IMG/VR virus record: IMGVR_UViG_3300031857_000829
Span: 1 to 32,344 of that record
DNA from: a virus
Strand: one strand, 5' to 3'
DNA: 32,344 bases
Shown piece by piece: positions 3,868 to 32,344 of the stretch (within the stretch, counting starts at the first letter, position 1; the number at the start of each line of letters is the position of its first letter). The position numbers and the translations under genes were made by a program. The notes beneath the pieces were generated by a model. The model saw only the letters and a list, made by a program, of their open reading frames with translations, made no database searches and was not told where the DNA came from.

Positions 3868-4850
3868 AAAATATAATCAAATCGTACTTGGAGAAGTACC
3901 CCGATGCACCTAACCGCACACTTGCAAAATTAATCTTAGAAGAAAACCCACAATTTGGTAGTATTGAAAATGTAAGGAATAAGATTCGGTATCAAAAAGG
4001 TGCAAATGGTGAAAAACTACTTGGGGATTTAGCAACTCACGAATTTGTCACTAAGAAATCTACCATTAAAGAGGGATTAGAAAAACTCAAAGTATTCTCC
4101 CAAAACAAAGAGATGGTTAATGTGCATCTAAAAGAGGGTAGATATTTAATCTTATCAGATATTCATATCCCATATCACGATATGGAGGCTTTATCTACAT
4201 CGTTAGAATGGGGATTAAATAACAATGTTGATTGCATTATTTTAAATGGGGATATTATGGATTGTTACCCAGTATCTTCATTTATTAAAGAGGTTGGGAT
4301 GCCGTCACTACGAGAGGAAATAGAGATGACTAAAACCTTTTTTGCGTATTTGCGTGAACTATTCCCAATTATACCTATTTACTACAAGTTAGGCAACCAC
4401 GAGGAGAGAGTAAGAAACTATTTACTACGCAACGCCAAAGAGTTTTCCGATGTTGATAATTTAAAGTTTGAAAACCTATTAGGACTAAGTGAGTTTAAAA
4501 TCAACTTAGTTAATCGTGAGATTATCAAATTAGGTAAATTAAACGTATTGCACGGTCACGAAATGGGCGAAAGTGTATTCTCACCGGTGAACCCTGCACG
4601 AGGTATGTTCCTCAAGGCTAAATCTTCTACTATCTTTGGACATAACCACCAAGTATCTCACCACTCAGAAAATAACATCAATGGTGAATCTACTGGTGTT
4701 TGGTCAATGGGTTGTCTTTGTACCCTATCTCCTGACTACAGACCTTATGCTTATACCAAATGGAGTCACGGATTTGCTTGTGTTGATGTTAACCAAGATT
4801 TGACATTCCACGTTAACAATATGAAGATTATTAACGGGAAAATAATATGA
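3864..4850 (+). CDS. Metallophosphoesterase (calcineurin-like), phage-encoded
   Basis: Counting from ATG 3864, the motifs of the binuclear metallophosphoesterase superfamily are all present: DIH at 99-101, GDIMD at 129-133, GNHE at 177-180, HGHE at ~230-233 and GHNH at ~259-262. It should hydrolyse phosphoesters, with nucleic acid or nucleotides as the likely substrate in a phage. The N-terminal ~70 residues look like a helical DNA-binding segment (LAKLILEENPQF, IENVRNKIRYQKG). ATG 3864 is chosen over an earlier in-frame start at 3828 because it forms an ATGA overlap with the spanin-like gene. It couples to the next gene by another ATGA. Confidence 0.85.
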   Translation: MKNIIKSYLEKYPDAPNRTLAKLILEENPQFGSIENVRNKIRYQKGANGEKLLGDLATHEFVTKKSTIKEGLEKLKVFSQNKEMVNVHLKEGRYLILSDIHIPYHDMEALSTSLEWGLNNNVDCIILNGDIMDCYPVSSFIKEVGMPSLREEIEMTKTFFAYLRELFPIIPIYYKLGNHEERVRNYLLRNAKEFSDVDNLKFENLLGLSEFKINLVNREIIKLGKLNVLHGHEMGESVFSPVNPARGMFLKAKSSTIFGHNHQVSHHSENNINGESTGVWSMGCLCTLSPDYRPYAYTKWSHGFACVDVNQDLTFHVNNMKIINGKII

Positions 4851-5077
4851 GAATCCTAAAGGTTGAAATCGTACACCAAGAACAACAAGATTCTATCTAC
4901 AAAGAGGTTGGATTAGGTGCTGATATTGTCGAAGTATTAGAGGATGGATATATCAATTTAGACGATGTTTCCGGAGCGATTGCCAACTATGATTACACTA
5001 ATGTACTTTTTAAGGGTGGTCAAATGCTACTTATTACGATGGATATTAATAGATTTGTAGCAGAATGGATATCGTAA
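4847..5077 (+). CDS. Hypothetical protein (76 aa)
   Basis: Begins RILKVEIVHQEQQDSIYKEV through an ATGA overlap with the phosphoesterase gene and overlaps the next gene by 13 nt. The composition suggests a small alpha/beta acidic protein (DIVEVLEDGYINLDDVSGAI) with no membrane segment. No family is recognised. The tight coupling on both sides supports expression. Confidence 0.6.
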   Translation: MRILKVEIVHQEQQDSIYKEVGLGADIVEVLEDGYINLDDVSGAIANYDYTNVLFKGGQMLLITMDINRFVAEWIS

Positions 5078-6423: not shown

Positions 6424-6455
6424 TTTGCATAATTGAAAGTTTTAGTTTACCTTTG
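6424..6455 (+). promoter_or_regulatory. Bacteroidota-type promoter upstream of the HTH gene
   Basis: TTTG at 6424-6427, a 20-nt spacer and TACCTTTG at 6448-6455 match the Bacteroidota consensus (TTTG or TTG, ~19-20 nt, TAnnTTTG). The ATG follows only 8 nt after the -7 element, so the 5' leader would be very short or absent. It probably starts the early recombination operon. Confidence 0.75.
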
Positions 6456-8108: not shown

Positions 8109-8156
8109 GGAAATCGTTCGTTTACTAAAAAAAGTAAATAAAAGTGAAAATATTTC

Positions 8157-8186
8157 TTGCACTATTGAAAGTTAGTAGTATATTTG
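8157..8186 (+). promoter_or_regulatory. Bacteroidota-type promoter with almost no leader
   Basis: TTG at 8157-8159, a 19-nt spacer and TATATTTG at 8179-8186 match the consensus closely. The next start codon (ATG 8191) follows only 4 nt after the -7 element, so the transcript is probably leaderless. It would drive the accessory operon. Confidence 0.8.
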
Positions 8187-8190
8187 AATC

Positions 8191-8418
8191 ATGGAAACAA
8201 CACTTAAACTATTATGCACAGAGCAGGAAGCTCATGCGTTGTTGGAATTACTACCAACGGATGAATTTATTAAAATGGTAAAGAACGATCCTGAATGGGG
8301 GTTTGCTGGGTCGGGTGAATTGTATGTGGTGTATATAAATAACCAATACAACTATTATTCCGCATCCCTATTATTTAGGTTGGGTATTGATTTGGGTAAA
8401 AAGATTGCTAATAAGTAA
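8191..8418 (+). CDS. Hypothetical protein (75 aa), first gene of the accessory operon
   Basis: Starts ETTLKLLCTEQEAHALLELL. It has a helical N-terminus, an aromatic middle (YVVYINNQYNYYSASLLF) and a basic end (GKKIANK). No family is recognised. It lies at the predicted transcription start of the strong promoter at 8157-8186, so it should be abundantly expressed early, possibly from a leaderless message. Confidence 0.65.
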   Translation: METTLKLLCTEQEAHALLELLPTDEFIKMVKNDPEWGFAGSGELYVVYINNQYNYYSASLLFRLGIDLGKKIANK

Positions 8419-9993: not shown

Positions 9994-10216
9994 TAAAAAA
10001 CAAAAACGAACTTTTGAAATTAAAATGATTGTAACGGTTTCGACAGAAAGGGCGATTGATGCAATGATAGAAATGAAGTATGACATTTTAAGTGGTAAGG
10101 CACAAAGAGAAATGTATCAAGAAGATGGATGTGATAAAGTAATAATGACTTTTACGGAGGTAACAAATGAAACTATATACAGAAGAACAAGTAAGAAAAG
10201 CCATAAAAATGGCTGA
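9983..10216 (+). CDS. Hypothetical protein (77 aa)
   Basis: A strong GGAGGT (9973-9978) precedes ATG 9983. The protein begins SNNKKQKRTFEIKMIVTVST and ends basic (RRTSKKSHKNG); the middle is helical (ERAIDAMIEMKYDILSGKA). No family is recognised. Its last 50 nt overlap the next gene, whose own Shine-Dalgarno site lies within it. First of the run of five SD-led genes. Confidence 0.6.
   Translation: MSNNKKQKRTFEIKMIVTVSTERAIDAMIEMKYDILSGKAQREMYQEDGCDKVIMTFTEVTNETIYRRTSKKSHKNG
10156..10194 (+). repeat. Direct repeat, copy 1, spanning SD and start codon
   Basis: A 39-nt segment containing GGAGGTAACAAATG and the first codons of the 86-aa gene; it recurs at 10413-10451 with one mismatch. It marks the tandem gene duplication. 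Confidence 0.85.
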
Positions 10217-10427
10217 CAAGTATCACTATCTTTTAGATTCTGAAGAATCTGAGATTGTAAACATTTTAGAATCTATCGAACTACCAAGTGATGAGGAGAT
10301 ATGGGAAGAAGGTAAATTGGTATTTAGTGAAAAAGGTAAAACTATTTATACTCATTACAATACAGTTCCAAGCTGGAGTGATGGAGCAAAATGGATGAGA
10401 GATAAAATACAAGGAGGTAACAAATGA
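10167..10427 (+). CDS. Hypothetical protein, tandem duplicate A (86 aa)
   Basis: Starts KLYTEEQVRKAIKMADKYHY, contains IELPSDEEIWEEG and ends GAKWMRDKIQGGNK. The same beginning, IELPSDE core and ending occur in the next gene, so the two are paralogues. Small proteins with a KLYTEEQV start and GAKWMRDKI end recur in Bacteroidota phages; the function is unknown. GGAGG lies 6 nt before the ATG. The middle parts differ in length and sequence, showing divergence after duplication. Confidence 0.7.
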   Translation: MKLYTEEQVRKAIKMADKYHYLLDSEESEIVNILESIELPSDEEIWEEGKLVFSEKGKTIYTHYNTVPSWSDGAKWMRDKIQGGNK

Positions 10428-10451: not shown

Positions 10452-10636
10452 AGGATATGTTAAATGGTTATGGTAACTTTGAGGATATCACCCCCATCGA
10501 ACTCCCAAGTGATGAAGATATATATAATGAAGCACAAAGCAAAAAAGACAACATAAAAAAACTACCATTCGATAGTGCTTCATTTCAATTTGGTGCAATG
10601 TGGTTAAAAGACAAAATACAAGGAGGTAACAAATGA
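10424..10636 (+). CDS. Hypothetical protein, tandem duplicate B (70 aa)
   Basis: Shares KLYTEEQV at the N-terminus, IELPSDEDI near residue 26 and GAMWLKDKIQGGNK at the C-terminus with the preceding gene, but is 16 residues shorter in the middle. It starts by ATGA overlap with its paralogue, with GGAGG (10413-10417) 6 nt upstream. Its final codons (QGGNK) again encode the Shine-Dalgarno of the next gene, so the duplicated unit carried its own translation signal. Confidence 0.7.
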   Translation: MKLYTEEQVKDMLNGYGNFEDITPIELPSDEDIYNEAQSKKDNIKKLPFDSASFQFGAMWLKDKIQGGNK

Positions 10637-11442: not shown

Positions 11443-11605
11443 AGATAATATGGAGTTAATGGCTCGTTATCCTGACAAGTATTTTGAATTGGCTATTGTT
11501 GACCCGCCTTATGGAATTGACGCAGATATCAAAAATAGTGGGGCAAATAGTGCGTCTCATTTGAAAAATAGCAAGGCAAAAATTAAAACATACAAAACAG
11601 GATGA
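11426..11605 (+). pseudogene. Truncated DNA methyltransferase (59 aa, keeps the DPPYGI motif)
   Basis: ATG 11426 opens a 59-codon frame starting QITNEDNMELMARYPDKYFE. Residues ~21-31 (ELAIVDPPYGI) are the catalytic DPPY motif of N6-adenine or N4-cytosine DNA methyltransferases, with the normal spacing from the N-terminus. After residue ~34 the sequence becomes a lysine-, asparagine- and serine-rich tail and stops at TGA 11603-11605. The rest of the catalytic domain and the SAM-binding motif expected downstream in this class are missing. It is best read as a deletion remnant; a catalytically active 59-aa protein is not credible. Confidence 0.8.
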
Positions 11606-11839: not shown

Positions 11840-11852
11840 ATACCTATATTTG
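11822..11852 (+). promoter_or_regulatory. Bacteroidota-type promoter for the leader and replication genes
   Basis: TTG at 11822-11824, a 20-nt spacer and TATATTTG at 11845-11852 fit the consensus. The -33 element lies in the end of the preceding gene. Unlike the other promoters here, it has a leader of about 95 nt before the next gene. Confidence 0.75.
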
Positions 11853-11952
11853 AATCGTTAACTGGATTGTAAGAGAATCCTAAAGTTAAAAAGATATTTG
11901 CCCGTTGGGTTTGCGTGTACTCTTACTACCGCAAATCTGATGGGCTTTTTTT
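11853..11952 (+). ncRNA. Structured leader RNA ending in an intrinsic terminator (attenuator candidate)
   Basis: Between the promoter and ATG 11953 two hairpins can be drawn. The first pairs TTAACT (11858-11863) and GGATT (11864-11868) with AATCC (11876-11880) and AGTTAA (11884-11889), leaving a 3-nt bulge. The second is the terminator stem at 11900-11945. A transcript stopping there would be a discrete ~90-nt RNA; read-through would express the replication genes. I see no obvious antiterminator by eye, so the switch mechanism is open. It could be an attenuator, a small RNA, or a replication-associated RNA. Confidence 0.6.
11900..11952 (+). terminator. Intrinsic terminator abutting the DUF6291 gene start codon
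   Basis: Arms 11900-11915 and 11930-11945 can form 16 continuous pairs (four of them G-U) around a 14-nt loop, followed by seven Ts (11946-11952). The next base is the A of ATG 11953, so the hairpin also covers the region where a ribosome would bind. Confidence 0.85.
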
Positions 11953-12510
11953 ATGGCAGAAAATAAAAAATCATTTATACTTTACACAGACCAAAGTGGA
12001 GTATTTAACCAATTGCCAGATGAAATGGCAGGTAAATTAATTAAGCATATATTCGCTTATGTGAACGATGAGAATCCTATCACCGAGGATTTGATTATTA
12101 ATATTGCATTTGAACCAATCAAGCAATCTTTAAAAAGAGATTTGCAAAGGTGGAATGATTATATTGTAAAACAATCACTTAATGGTAAAAAAGGTGGTAG
12201 ACCATCAAAAGCCAACGAAACCCAAAAAACCCAAGCCTTTTTAGAAAAACCCAAAAAAGCTGATAGTGTAAGTGTAAGTGATAGTGTTAATGATAATGTA
12301 AAGAAGTTTATTAAGCCAACAGAAAACGACATTAGGGCTTACATGATAGAACAAGGTATGCAAGATGAATCAACTCGTTTCTACAACTACTACGAAGCCA
12401 ATGGATGGAAAGTAGGACGCAACCCAATGAAGAATTGGAAAGCAGCCGTTATAACTTGGAAGAAAAACCAACCACAACAACAACCAGTTTTAAACTATAA
12501 ACAATTTTAA
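11953..12510 (+). CDS. DUF6291-like replication-module protein
   Basis: The N-terminal ~90 residues (KSFILYTDQSGVFNQLPDEM, GKLIKHIFAYVNDENP, FEPIKQSLKRDLQRWNDY) match the DUF6291 pattern seen upstream of phage helicase genes. A linker follows that is encoded by a micro-repeat (SVSVSDSVNDNV). The C-terminal part (ENDIRAYMIEQG, FYNYYEANGWKVGRNPMKNW) is the short module also found at the ends of phage replisome-organiser-like proteins. It probably helps to load the DnaB helicase encoded next. Expression must pass an intrinsic terminator that touches its ATG. The role is inferred from position and domain pattern. Confidence 0.75.
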   Translation: MAENKKSFILYTDQSGVFNQLPDEMAGKLIKHIFAYVNDENPITEDLIINIAFEPIKQSLKRDLQRWNDYIVKQSLNGKKGGRPSKANETQKTQAFLEKPKKADSVSVSDSVNDNVKKFIKPTENDIRAYMIEQGMQDESTRFYNYYEANGWKVGRNPMKNWKAAVITWKKNQPQQQPVLNYKQF

Positions 12511-13744: not shown

Positions 13745-14244
13745 TGGAAACAATATACCAACAACACCACGACTTAAAAAAGCGTTATCAGTCATTGCTA
13801 TTGAAACACGAAACAATGCAACGCCAGTATGAGGAGAAACTGAGAGAACTCCGTCATGAATTATTAAATCCAAGAATCAAGTATGTTAAAAACTGCGAAG
13901 ATTGGGAATTGGTATTACGAGAGATATGCCAAGTGTATGAAACATCCCCATCAGAAGTATTGGGAACATCCCGGAAAGCAGATTTTACCATCCCACGACA
14001 TTTATTCTGCTACATCATGCGCTTTCATTACGGATATAAGACAACGCAGATAGGTAGAATACTGGTTAAAGACCATAGCACCGTACTTAATGCTTGTAAA
14101 CAAATCGAATACTATTTAGAATATGACAAAATCCTCCAAAGAAACTACGCCACCCTCCTTGAGGTATTGGGATTTAATAGTGACAAAGGGACTCTACACC
14201 TCGATAATCATTCTGTACAACGAGTCCGAAGTGGGATTTTATGA
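13744..14244 (+). CDS. DnaA domain IV-like DNA-binding protein with N-terminal coiled coil
   Basis: Residues ~52-125 resemble only the C-terminal DNA-binding domain of DnaA: CQVYETSPSEVLGTSRKADF, then HLFCYIMRFHYGYKTTQIGR and the DnaA signature DHSTVLNA at 110-117 followed by CKQIEYYL. Residues ~5-40 form a charged coiled coil. There is no AAA+ ATPase. It should bind DnaA-box-like sites, perhaps at the phage origin, or titrate or redirect host DnaA. It follows DnaB in the same operon, which fits a role in initiation. Confidence 0.8.
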   Translation: METIYQQHHDLKKRYQSLLLKHETMQRQYEEKLRELRHELLNPRIKYVKNCEDWELVLREICQVYETSPSEVLGTSRKADFTIPRHLFCYIMRFHYGYKTTQIGRILVKDHSTVLNACKQIEYYLEYDKILQRNYATLLEVLGFNSDKGTLHLDNHSVQRVRSGIL

Positions 14245-14271
14245 AAAAAAATATAAAAAGTTAGGATATAG

Positions 14272-14301
14272 TTGTAAAATTGAAAAAAAGTTTTAAATTT
14301 G
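14272..14301 (+). promoter_or_regulatory. Bacteroidota-type promoter at the sigma-like gene
   Basis: TTG at 14272-14274, a 19-nt spacer and TAAATTTG at 14294-14301 match the consensus. The last three bases of the -7 element are the TTG that is the only early canonical start of the next gene. Confidence 0.7.
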
Positions 14302-14805
14302 AATATCAAACGCAACGAGATTATACAATGGTTAACAACTGAGTCGTGGTTCTTGGAGGCGTGTTACAAGATAGCACCTAACAAGGACACGGCTGAGGAG
14401 TTGTATCAATATGCATTTCTTGCGATAATGGAAAAACCTAATAAACAAATAGAGGAAATTTATGCGGGTGGTTATATACGCTTCTATGTTGTACGGCTCT
14501 TGTACAACGCAATACACGGAAAATGCAGTCCGTTTGCAAAACATCGAATTCAAGAGAGCGATGAAGTGGAGGATAGATTTTCAGATGAAGAATCCATACC
14601 TTACAAAGAGGCTCAGGAGATTAAGTACAACGCCATTGAGCGAACCTTGCCGAAGTTACATTGGTATGAACGTAAAATCTTCGAAATATGGATGGAAGGA
14701 AATTCGGCTCGTGCCATTCACCGACAAACAAAAATCAGTATCAACGAAATACTACGAGTAATAAAAAAAGTAAAACAACAAATAAGAGATGAATACAATT
14801 CTTGA
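14299..14805 (+). CDS. Sigma-70/ECF-like transcription factor (late gene regulator candidate)
   Basis: The protein of about 168 aa has a sigma region-2-like part (AEELYQYAFLAIMEKP, GYIRFYVVRLLYNAIHGKCS) and a C-terminal region-4-like HTH (LPKLHWYERKIFEIWMEGNS followed by ARAIHRQTKISINEILRVIK). Small sigma-like proteins of this kind occur in Bacteroidota phages and are candidates for late transcription. The annotated start TTG 14299 lies inside the -7 element, and the first in-frame ATG would remove the conserved N-terminus. Either an upstream transcript supplies the TTG start or a non-standard start just downstream is used. Confidence 0.7.
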   Translation: MNIKRNEIIQWLTTESWFLEACYKIAPNKDTAEELYQYAFLAIMEKPNKQIEEIYAGGYIRFYVVRLLYNAIHGKCSPFAKHRIQESDEVEDRFSDEESIPYKEAQEIKYNAIERTLPKLHWYERKIFEIWMEGNSARAIHRQTKISINEILRVIKKVKQQIRDEYNS

Positions 14806-20136: not shown

Positions 20137-20669
20137 AATACACAATCGGACAAATACAAGAAGTACACTCATTGGGTGACTTAGGAAACTTAGATAAGAA
20201 AATTGAAGCGTTGGCAATTCTAACTAATAGAACTATTGACCAAGTAGAAGAGATGTCAATGAATGCTATTTTGGAGGAGTTTAAGACACTTAATTTCATT
20301 CCAAGTAAGACAGAACCTAAATTTGTTTTTAAGCACTTAGGAAGGAAATATAAACTCCTTACCAACCCACTCGATTTAAAGGCTCACCAATGGATTGAAT
20401 TGCAAGAGATATACAATGGTGATATTATCGAATCGCTTAATAAGATTATGGCTCTGCTATCTGTTGAATCCAGTTTATTTAACAAAAAACGGGACATCGG
20501 TAAAAAGGAATTTGATAAACGATGCGAAGATTTTCTCTCGTTGGATTTTGCCATTGCATATAATTATGCGCTTTTTTTTTCGAAAGTCTATCCCGAATTA
20601 TTGAAGGCTACCCTGTCTTATTTGAAGCAGGAAGTGGAGAGTCTACAACAGGACTTAGACCTACATTGA
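20133..20669 (+). CDS. Tail assembly chaperone, G-type (zero-frame product)
   Basis: This 178-aa protein (FVFKHLGRKYKLLTNPLDLK, AHQWIELQEIYNGDIIESLN, FLSLDFAIAYNYALFFSKVY) fits helical tail assembly chaperones that coat the tape measure before tail polymerisation. Near codon 149 it contains a nine-T run (20572-20580); a -1 slip there joins the downstream frame to give a 245-aa G-T fusion, as in lambda. In the zero frame it continues for ~29 more residues and stops at 20669. It lies upstream of the tail genes, as expected. Confidence 0.72.
   Translation: MKYTIGQIQEVHSLGDLGNLDKKIEALAILTNRTIDQVEEMSMNAILEEFKTLNFIPSKTEPKFVFKHLGRKYKLLTNPLDLKAHQWIELQEIYNGDIIESLNKIMALLSVESSLFNKKRDIGKKEFDKRCEDFLSLDFAIAYNYALFFSKVYPELLKATLSYLKQEVESLQQDLDLH
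20572..20580 (+). promoter_or_regulatory. Programmed -1 frameshift site (T9)
   Basis: In frame zero the codons are CTT TTT TTT TCG, so T TTT TTT at 20573-20579 is a slippery heptamer. After a -1 slip the reading TTC GAA AGT continues without a stop through to 20869. The frame of the following gene is thereby fused to the first. Confidence 0.72.
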
Positions 20670-20869
20670 TTTGGTTGGAGTTGGTGGATAAACTATGTCG
20701 AGGGGATAGGACTAAATGGGATTACTTTTTACATATGGGGTTGATTGAGTTCTTAAACACGGTTGCATTTTATAAGTCAACCAAGAAGGAACAAGCCAAG
20801 CGATTAGAACAGGCTGCAAACAAAGGATATCAGACCTATATTGTGGCGGTGTTAAATGAGATGTTGTAA
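20666..20869 (+). CDS. Tail assembly chaperone, T-type part (expressed by -1 frameshift)
   Basis: On its own this frame begins only at a TTG overlapping the upstream stop, but the same frame is open from the T9 site at 20572-20580, giving ~97 residues after the slip. The C-terminal part (IWLELVDKLCRGDRTKWDYF, then HMGLIEFLNTVAFYKSTKKE) is helical. It is probably the T domain, which binds tail tube subunits while the G domain binds the tape measure. Independent TTG-initiated expression is less likely than frameshifting. Confidence 0.68.
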   Translation: MIWLELVDKLCRGDRTKWDYFLHMGLIEFLNTVAFYKSTKKEQAKRLEQAANKGYQTYIVAVLNEML

Positions 20870-21071
20870 TTCGGAAAATATCCGAGTTGTAACAAATAAT
20901 ACTACAAAATTGTTACGAGATAAAGTGTTATATAAGGCACAAATTGACGGATAATTGTGACATTAAACACCATTTATCACATTAAAGTGTGATTTATTGC
21001 ACATTAAAGTGGGATTCTTTATTGAGCAAAAATAGATTTAGGACGCATTTAAATCAAAACTATTTTATAAC
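20870..21071 (+). other. Largest non-coding region; hairpins and iteron-like repeats
   Basis: No credible gene lies in these ~200 nt. A small inverted repeat TCGGA/TCCGA (20871-20875, 20881-20885) is followed by GTAACAA/TTGTTAC (20889-20895, 20910-20916) with a 14-nt loop. Neither is followed by a T tract, so they are not clear terminators. Three repeats with an ACATTAAA core come next. No Bacteroidota consensus promoter is seen. It separates the chaperone operon from the tail genes and may hold a late promoter, an origin, or both. Confidence 0.6.
20959..21024 (+). repeat. Three iteron-like direct repeats with ACATTAAA core
   Basis: ACATTAAA occurs at 20960-20967, 20979-20986 and 21001-21008, spaced 19 and 22 nt apart, about two helical turns. 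The second and third units extend to CACATTAAAGTG with a GATT and TTTATTG tail. CAC and GTG form small palindromic ends. Such spacing suits a DNA-binding protein on one face of the helix. Confidence 0.7.
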
Positions 21072-22208
21072 GTGAGCGTTACAATTAACCAAAAACCTGA
21101 ATTAACAACACCTGCTTACAATGATATTAACTTTGTTGTAAGTGAATCGAGTGCAGCAATCTATGAAAAAGACAACTTTAAATGGATTGGAGAGGTTGTA
21201 GTAGATTCAACTACCATCGCAAAACTAAAAGTACCTATTGCTTACGGCAGCACAAACAAAGCCGTATTTAATATAGGTAGAATTATGGAATCTTATGTCA
21301 CACAAGATTTCAACTACAATGATACCCTTGCGAGTGGTTGCACCAATTCCACAAAGGAGTACAACTTTAAGGTAGGTTATGAGTATTCTACAAGTCCTAC
21401 CGGTAGTGTTACCGAATACTTAAACCAAGCATCCGCAAGTGGTAGCATTTGGAACGCTGCTTTAAATCCTTATGACTTTGTATCGTTTGATATCGACACT
21501 TACACCGATACTGCTCGTAAGTTCTTGACATCGGTTCGTAGTCAATCAATCCACAGAACGCAAAAGGTATGGTTATACGCTCTAAGAGGTGTAGCAACCA
21601 ATTTAAGAATAGTTTACTCAGATGCAACTACTTCAACTTATACACTTCCGAATGTCCGAATGGTTAGAATACCAGTTAATTTGGCAACTCCATCGGGAGC
21701 AACTTATTTCGATTGTTATCTTCGGGATGTAGATGGTGTACAGATTTCTGAGAGTTATCGGTTCTACATTAAAGACGAGTGTAGCAAGTACGAAAACTAC
21801 GATTTGTTTTGGTTGAACAGATTAGGTGGATTTGATTCATTCCGATTTAATCGAGTTAGTAAGACATCGCACGAAATAACCCGACAAACGTACAGACAAA
21901 ATCCGTACACGCTAAACAATAACGCAGTAAGTTGGACTTATGGCACTGATTCTTTTAGCAATACCCAATACTATGCGGAAAGCAAAGAGAAATTAACCTT
22001 ATTTAGTAATTGGATAACCGATAGTGAAAGCATTTGGTTAAGGGAATTGGTAGAATCTCCCGTTGTGTACATTTGGGATGGCTCAATATTGCGTAGTTGC
22101 AACATAACAAGCAACACCTACGAAGAGAAAAAGTGGATTAATGACAAGATGTTTAACCTACAATTAGACTTAGAATTTGCCTTTGTTGACAAAGTACAAC
22201 GCAGATGA
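21072..22208 (+). CDS. Tail structural protein (distal tail-like)
   Basis: The 378-aa product starts at GTG 21072 (SVTINQKPELTTPAYNDINF) and is beta-rich, with FVVSESSAAIYEKDNFKWIG near the start and a C-terminal part reading YDLFWLNRLGGFDSFRFNR. Proteins with this N-terminal 'P...YN..NFVVSE' pattern and 'FWLNRLGG' middle are encoded upstream of the large tail protein in Bacteroidota siphoviruses. A baseplate or distal tail role is inferred from position before the 913-aa tail protein, with which it overlaps by ATGA. Confidence 0.6.
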   Translation: MSVTINQKPELTTPAYNDINFVVSESSAAIYEKDNFKWIGEVVVDSTTIAKLKVPIAYGSTNKAVFNIGRIMESYVTQDFNYNDTLASGCTNSTKEYNFKVGYEYSTSPTGSVTEYLNQASASGSIWNAALNPYDFVSFDIDTYTDTARKFLTSVRSQSIHRTQKVWLYALRGVATNLRIVYSDATTSTYTLPNVRMVRIPVNLATPSGATYFDCYLRDVDGVQISESYRFYIKDECSKYENYDLFWLNRLGGFDSFRFNRVSKTSHEITRQTYRQNPYTLNNNAVSWTYGTDSFSNTQYYAESKEKLTLFSNWITDSESIWLRELVESPVVYIWDGSILRSCNITSNTYEEKKWINDKMFNLQLDLEFAFVDKVQRR

Positions 22209-32072: not shown

Positions 32073-32167
32073 CACTATTTCGTAAAAAGCCAAAACGCAA
32101 GTTAGGCAGACATACCAAACACATTAATAAACATAAATCGTGGAAACCAAATCGAGGTCAAGGGTGA
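32048..32167 (+). CDS. Very small basic protein (39 aa), right copy
   Basis: ATG 32048 opens a 39-codon frame (AKVKTSITLFRKKPKRKLGR at the start). Its last 26 residues equal those of the left copy at 364-480, whereas residues 3-13 differ. It ends in a TGA that overlaps the next GTG start. Conservation of the C-terminus across diverged copies supports a real gene. Confidence 0.7.
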   Translation: MAKVKTSITLFRKKPKRKLGRHTKHINKHKSWKPNRGQG

Positions 32168-32343
32168 AGTTCAAACCCTATTTTTCGCCAACACCTAAAA
32201 GAATTCGCATTTTTGGCGATAGTTTAGCCGCTGCATCTATAATGGTTGCAGGATTTAATATGTCTGAACCCTCCGTGATGATAGGTTGTGCAGTCGTTGG
32301 TGGATTAGGTAAATTCCTATCAAACTTTTTCACTATCGAATAA
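32164..32343 (+). CDS. Holin-like small membrane protein, right copy
   Basis: Same protein as 477-656, residue for residue, starting at GTG with a GTGA overlap (in-frame GTG 32140 possible). Two apolar segments and a PTPKRIRIF start are as in the left copy. All seven nucleotide differences from the left copy are synonymous. Confidence 0.65.
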   Translation: MKFKPYFSPTPKRIRIFGDSLAAASIMVAGFNMSEPSVMIGCAVVGGLGKFLSNFFTIE

Positions 32344-32344
32344 A

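Follow-up and report, generated by a model that had tools for sequence, protein, structure and literature searches.

A putative single-copy late promoter and a dyad shared with AbiE promoters at the structural operon junction of an uncultured phage

The longest gap in the genome and its setting

The window analysed here (the whole 32,344 nt of the IMG/VR virus record IMGVR_UViG_3300031857_000829) contains 202 nt of non-coding DNA between a stop codon at 20869 and a GTG at 21072, which raises the question of what function this DNA serves. A first-pass annotation had picked out the gap for its length, its repeats and two small inverted repeats, and proposed a replication origin, a late operator or both. 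The gap is indeed the longest in the window, which also contains lesser gaps of 113 nt (11840-11952) and 82 nt (8109-8190). It is an operon junction and the control point of the structural operon: upstream lies a 67-aa ORF (20666-20869, + strand), the final gene of the TerL-containing operon, and downstream a 378-aa gene (21072-22208, + strand) with a GTG start, the first of the structural operon. In 127 loci of relatives, tblastn placed a homolog of the 67-aa ORF ahead of the 378-aa gene.

The main genes of the window are all on the + strand, including portal (670), helicase (12512), a DnaA-C-domain protein (13744; PF08299, 3e-16), terminase (18734), head-maturation protease (26548) and a probable capsid gene (28116), the last named from its position and a phrog of unknown function. 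Because the record ends overlap (424-657 matches 32111-32344 at 95%), the genome was probably circularly assembled and is about 31.7 kb. No DNA relatives of the window were found among cultured phages and no relatives of the 378-aa protein in the species genomes; the window does have a distant match to the Nonlabens phages P12024S and P12024L. From this match, the promoter type and the gene families we infer that the hosts are Bacteroidota. The relatives compared are metagenomic contigs from IMG/VR which were recruited via the 378-aa protein (8 close ones at 74-94% identity, then > 200 more distant, the best 80 per scan being used), giving a comparison set of 131 related loci and, after dereplication (under 88% nucleotide identity), 18 representatives.

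A putative late promoter and its candidate sigma factor

The last 36 nt of the gap (21036-21071) form an element, A-TTTRRRACGMA-N11-RCTATTTT, which ends at the GTG of the first structural gene. It consists of an upstream box ATTTAGGACGCAT (family form ATTTGGAACGCAT; 21036-21048, −36 to −24 from the GTG, + strand) and a downstream box ACTATTTTA (family form GCTATTTTT; 21059-21067, −13 to −5, + strand). All 131 aligned loci have A-TTTGGAACGCAT-N10-GCTATTTTT-n3-Y directly 5' of the GTG in a fixed register. Among the 18 representatives, positions −34, −33, −29, −28, −27 and −12 to −6 are invariant, with CTATTTT unchanged in 18/18, and mean pairwise identity is 80% at −36 to −24 and 90% at −13 to −5, compared to 28% in the spacer, 31% in upstream DNA and 49% at third codon positions. 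The element is retained where gaps are only 30-34 nt, the upstream stop codon running into the −33 box, and in L010, where a promoter box lies within the end of another gene. All loci in which the start of the 378-aa gene is visible have GTG, and since the codon pattern of this gene is coding from codon 2 on, the GTG is the start codon.

A full unbiased scan of IMG/VR for TTTRRRACGMAT-N10-RCTATTTT returned 63 distinct sites, 61 of them at this gene: 60 precede a 378-aa homolog, all with GTG, and 1 is cut off just after the GTG, the remaining 2 being unrelated. The core ACG-N14-CTATTTT was matched exactly once per genome in 23/23 near-complete relatives (controls: 3 in all); the window alone has a second core match, on the minus strand within a coding region. 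The next-best match to the late-promoter profile in the window scores 14.5 bits (shuffles about 7) and lies inside a coding region at 11527-11562 on the minus strand.

Taken together, 21036-21071 is probably a single-copy late promoter driving the structural operon, as judged from its conservation and position. The earlier proposal of a late operator was therefore close in that the gap is the control point of this operon; its key element, the promoter in the last 36 nt, had gone unnoticed. In the mechanism we propose, structural genes would be switched on from this element, with late timing presumed, and the likely reader would be host RNA polymerase together with a phage-encoded sigma2-sigma4 protein. 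Since the spacing of the boxes equals that of the Bacteroidota −33/−7 promoter, transcription is predicted to start at the GTG at 21072 or no more than about 3 nt away, so that the structural operon mRNA would be leaderless or near-leaderless with a GTG start. Leaderless messages make up 5.5% of the mRNAs in F. psychrophilum (PMC9723704). The predicted phage message resembles them in having its start codon at the predicted 5' end and differs in that the form is conserved family-wide and always uses GTG.

The main alternative concerns what reads the promoter. The Bacteroidota primary sigma factor recognises TTTG at −33 and TAnnTTTG at −7 (PMC6847099, PMC9723704), and in F. johnsoniae the −7 box runs from −12 to −5 relative to the start site (PMC6847099). 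Host primary sigma could read the late promoter if aided by a phage activator that binds ACGCAT or the upstream repeats, in which case the sigma-like gene would serve another purpose. The geometry fits, as the boxes start at −35 and −11 from the GTG, within 1 nt of −33/−7, the positions relative to the predicted start agree and the −7 box is AT-rich and begins with TA; in addition, a G at −32 completes TTTG in 15/18 representatives, and clade B has forms which agree with the host consensus in carrying TTTG and TATTTTTG. However, the window lacks TTTG at both ends, reading TTTA around −33 and TATTTTAT at −7; G is found at −4 in only 4/18 representatives, so the TTTG which ends the host −7 box is not kept even though CTATTTT is invariant. 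Also unlike the host class, the late promoter has an invariant ACG at −29 to −27 and a C at −12, and occurs once per genome.

Host-type promoters elsewhere in the same phage do retain TTTG. One, TTTG-N20-TACCTTTG (6424-6455, + strand), precedes 6464 and is kept in relatives including L276 and L277-L283; at another site (8179-8190, + strand) the −7 box TATATTTG plus AATC stands directly before the ATG at 8191, at the start of the early region. Because the late promoter departs from the host consensus where these other promoters keep it, and because of the invariant ACG, the phage protein is the likelier reader and recognition by host sigma seems doubtful.

At 11846-11952 a further host-type −7 box, TATATTTG, was observed to precede about 100 nt of non-coding sequence, the end of which forms a very stable hairpin with a T run (fold z −5.6); this may be a small RNA or the attenuated leader of the ORF at 11953, and it had no Rfam match. 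Two other promoter candidates near the gap were discarded: a minus-strand sequence at 21058 which matches the host-type promoter perfectly is not kept in L003 or L006, and no standard E. coli sigma-70 promoter was found in 20600-21300.

The candidate reader is encoded at 14299-14805 (+ strand). Its model is of moderate quality (pLDDT 75, pTM 0.44; Foldseek best E-value 0.016) and combines sigma2 (residues 1-79) and sigma4 (107-168) folds in one short protein, an ECF-like layout. A structural search returned sigma factors as 50/50 of the matches listed, with residues 1-79 matching SigR sigma2 (Z 8.2, rmsd 3.0) and residues 107-168 matching SigA region 4 (Z 8.1, rmsd 1.8), Z values which helical folds inflate. 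The protein scored 16.9 bits against the curated Pfam Sigma70_r2 cut-off of 24, its alignment gave no matches against PDB profiles, and BLASTP found no similarity to the sigma gene of P12024S. The gene is present in every related record > 27 kb; this universality does not single it out, as the DnaA-like gene is equally universal. On balance, the modelled folds lead us to favour, by a small degree, a late sigma factor as the identity of this protein. A TAAATTTG box at the start of the gene is not a promoter, consisting of the stop codon and flank of an overlapping ORF (14123-14296). It was also observed that the gene is without an ATG start in L092, L093 and L094: clade B has GTG or TTG overlapping the upstream stop, and L093 and L094 (1501-1998) have an in-frame TGA directly before the ATC where homology begins.

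Phages are known to switch to late genes via an encoded sigma factor, as with T4 gp55 and SPO1 gp28/gp33-34. The arrangement described here is similar in having a divergent sigma-like gene in an earlier operon and a distinct promoter class before the structural genes. It differs in its single predicted leaderless promoter with a GTG start and its sigma2-sigma4 architecture, and recognition is here a prediction. A full-text literature search found no late promoter described for uncultured Bacteroidota phages of this kind. In the cultured Nonlabens phage P12024S, TTTC(C/A)CGTTAATAnnnnATG-like boxes were seen before three late genes (L179 4087, 5327, 6928) and a Sigma70_r2 gene lies upstream of them, so that a culturable test system has a comparable arrangement in which the letters differ.

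A conserved dyad shared with AbiE promoters

Both inverted repeats described in the first-pass annotation were recovered where it had placed them, at 20871-20885 (5-bp arms) and 20889-20916 (GTAACAA/TTGTTAC). This stretch folds better than shuffles (z −3.0), and no intrinsic terminator was found at the window's inverted repeats. The second of them is a 28-nt dyad, GTAACA-N16-TGTTAC, which was found in 23/31 dereplicated long-gap loci vs 0/595 control windows. It is single-copy in the phage genomes which carry it and absent from compact genomes. When scanned in its strict form, GTAACAAAT-N10-ATTTGTTAC, from which the window copy is one mismatch off and which undercounts variants, the dyad was present in at least 120 viral contigs; among the 80 matches listed, 41 were from this phage family and 39 from other phages. 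No DNA-binding gene common to all dyad-bearing phages was evident among the partial loci compared. Half-site GTAACAAAT is also contained in three exact copies of GGAGGTAACAAATG in the window (10156-10169, 10413-10426 and 10622-10635), which consist of a strong Shine-Dalgarno plus ATG, unusual for Bacteroidota.

Because the outer arms never vary, at fixed spacing, and none of 6 pairs has a compensatory change, the second inverted repeat is suggested to be a DNA site, and RNA structure was rejected for want of covariation. The competing view takes it as a terminator or 3' hairpin in the mRNA of the upstream operon, with no connection to AbiE. In its favour, most of the long-gap loci which bear the dyad have its first letters within the stop codon that ends the upstream operon. 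Besides the invariant arms and absent compensation, this view has to contend with the lack of a T tract after the dyad and with chromosomal copies which have the same spacer consensus and precede a start codon, and we consider it unlikely.

These chromosomal copies came from a genome collection (one genome each for 84,980 species) in which the strict dyad had only 19 matches. Of the 11 in Bacteroidota, 10 closely precede genes of the AbiE abortive-infection system (AbiEi/AbiEii): some 20-30 nt separate the dyad from the coding sequence of a DUF6088 protein (PADLOC: AbiEi), or from what is left of a decayed start, with AbiEii next after AbiEi in 5/6 cases with enough DNA. The eleventh (L395) is inside an apparently unrelated coding sequence. 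The 8 non-Bacteroidota matches are scattered, 3 of them near HTH-S24 repressors; in L389, L392 and L393 (Bacillota) the dyad was seen to overlap a TTGACA/TATATT-like promoter near the HTH-S24 repressor gene. In five of these host genomes, which were chosen for having the dyad, a relaxed form of it was matched at a single place, abiE. The chromosomal consensus is GTAACAAATAATAGTGTATATTTGTTACGA and that of the phages GTAACAAATAGTAGTGNAAATTTGTTACGA, and by sequence the phage dyad and the presumed AbiE operator are the same, agreeing even in spacer and flank letters.

AbiEi proteins are known to bind their own promoter at inverted repeats (PMC7319586), and the simplest reading of the chromosomal dyad is therefore an AbiEi operator. 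Compared to the promoter of the AbiE type IV toxin-antitoxin system (PMC7319586, PMC3985639), the likeness is that the Bacteroidota dyad before AbiEi equals the phage 28-nt element; the differences are that the phage copy is without a detected AbiEi or AbiEii gene and that the site bound by AbiEi in S. agalactiae consists of two 23-bp repeats with 3 bp between them (PMC7319586, PMC3985639). AbiEi (PDLC02226) was not found in 29 phage records in a search which was positive in 3/3 host genomes; AbiEi (PF19570) had no match in the phages, nor in the positive control.

We tentatively suggest that the late-operon gate of Bacteroidota phages bears a host AbiE operator without AbiE, such that the phage site titrates or reads AbiEi, or AbiE is wired to a phage operator as a tripwire. 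The shared letters are compatible with several forms of this: the dyad may be a decoy for host AbiEi, it may make phage transcription responsive to AbiEi (hijacked control), or the AbiE promoter may have adopted a phage operator which senses infection. It is also possible that a shared third protein lies behind both the phage and the chromosomal dyads.

The repeat array, the variable slot and the origin proposal

The remaining content of the gap is more local. As had been noted, ACATTAAA occurs three times, at 20960, 20979 and 21001 (spacing 19 and 22), and its extended form CACATTAAAGTG at 20978 and 21000 and nowhere else; the further claim that the copies lie on one helical face is doubtful, 19 nt being about 1.8 helical turns. 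The octamer by itself is not enriched in the window (6 found vs 4.8 expected). Its clustering is beyond chance, as three copies within 49 nt occurred in 0/300 dinucleotide simulations and any 8-mer three times within 49 nt in just 2% of simulations. The first copy (20960-20967, + strand) is kept in the clade A relatives L003-L009. The second (20978-20989, + strand) is replaced in L007 by its exact reverse complement CACTTTAATGTG, and the third (21000-21011, + strand) lies inside a 44-nt stretch which the window shares with L003 and L006 alone. These three sequences each have three ACATTAAA-type copies, whereas L004, L005, L008 and L009 have two and L007 has one forward plus one exactly inverted; this inversion suggests that the outer CAC-N6-GTG dyad of the repeats may be what matters. 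L010 and all more distant relatives are without them. The array is local content of the closest clade, and its copies are perhaps operators. The first inverted repeat, TCGGA-AAATA-TCCGA (20871-20885), is present only in the window and L007 as a small lineage-specific insertion with a GTTGTAA duplication on its flanks, and L003, L005, L006 and L009, which are without it, read GTTGTAACAAAT directly. The test of conservation in relatives set by the first-pass annotation therefore divides the gap, the repeats being confined to the closest clade and the second inverted repeat and promoter being widely conserved.

From the upstream stop codon up to the promoter, the DNA behaves as a variable cargo slot, the gap between the same two flanking genes ranging from 30 nt to > 1.1 kb across relatives. 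In L010 it holds what by eye is a dCMP-deaminase-like ORF (4607-5001), the 3' end of which extends into the late promoter's ACGCAT box, and in L073 (4261-5001) an ORF of roughly 100 aa which has a leaderless promoter of its own, TACTTTTG-AATC-ATG, and is followed by a terminator hairpin. Five loci carry an antisense tRNA-like element (L020 3575-3764, L030 3962-4165, L048 2898-3086, and also L044 and L047) with a tRNA-Leu-like D arm and T arm and an overlong middle, for which ARAGORN and Rfam returned nothing. Clade C relatives have a GAGAGAC...GTCTCTC-TTT hairpin immediately 5' of the promoter.

The proposal that the array serves as an iteron-type origin of replication to which the DnaA-like protein binds is very improbable and was rejected: the clustering and the encoded DnaA C-terminal domain speak for it, but most relatives are without the array, in at least 35/128 loci the same two genes are separated by 40 nt or less, which leaves no room for it, the DnaA-like gene is independent of it (present in 15/15 relatives searched, including the three compact ones G014, G023 and G024), cumulative GC skew, one of the checks named with the proposal, climbs steadily across the region with no inflection, near-matches to the DnaA box number 11 vs 10.9 expected with no cluster, and the replication genes sit 7-9 kb from the gap.

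For a group of uncultured Bacteroidota phages which is widespread, the locus offers a putative late promoter defined by its sequence, along with a candidate for a dedicated sigma factor; the structural message of these phages is predicted to be leaderless with a GTG start in hosts with about 5% leaderless transcripts. The dyad links a phage control site to an abortive-infection promoter, and it bears on how phages and AbiE may sense one another.
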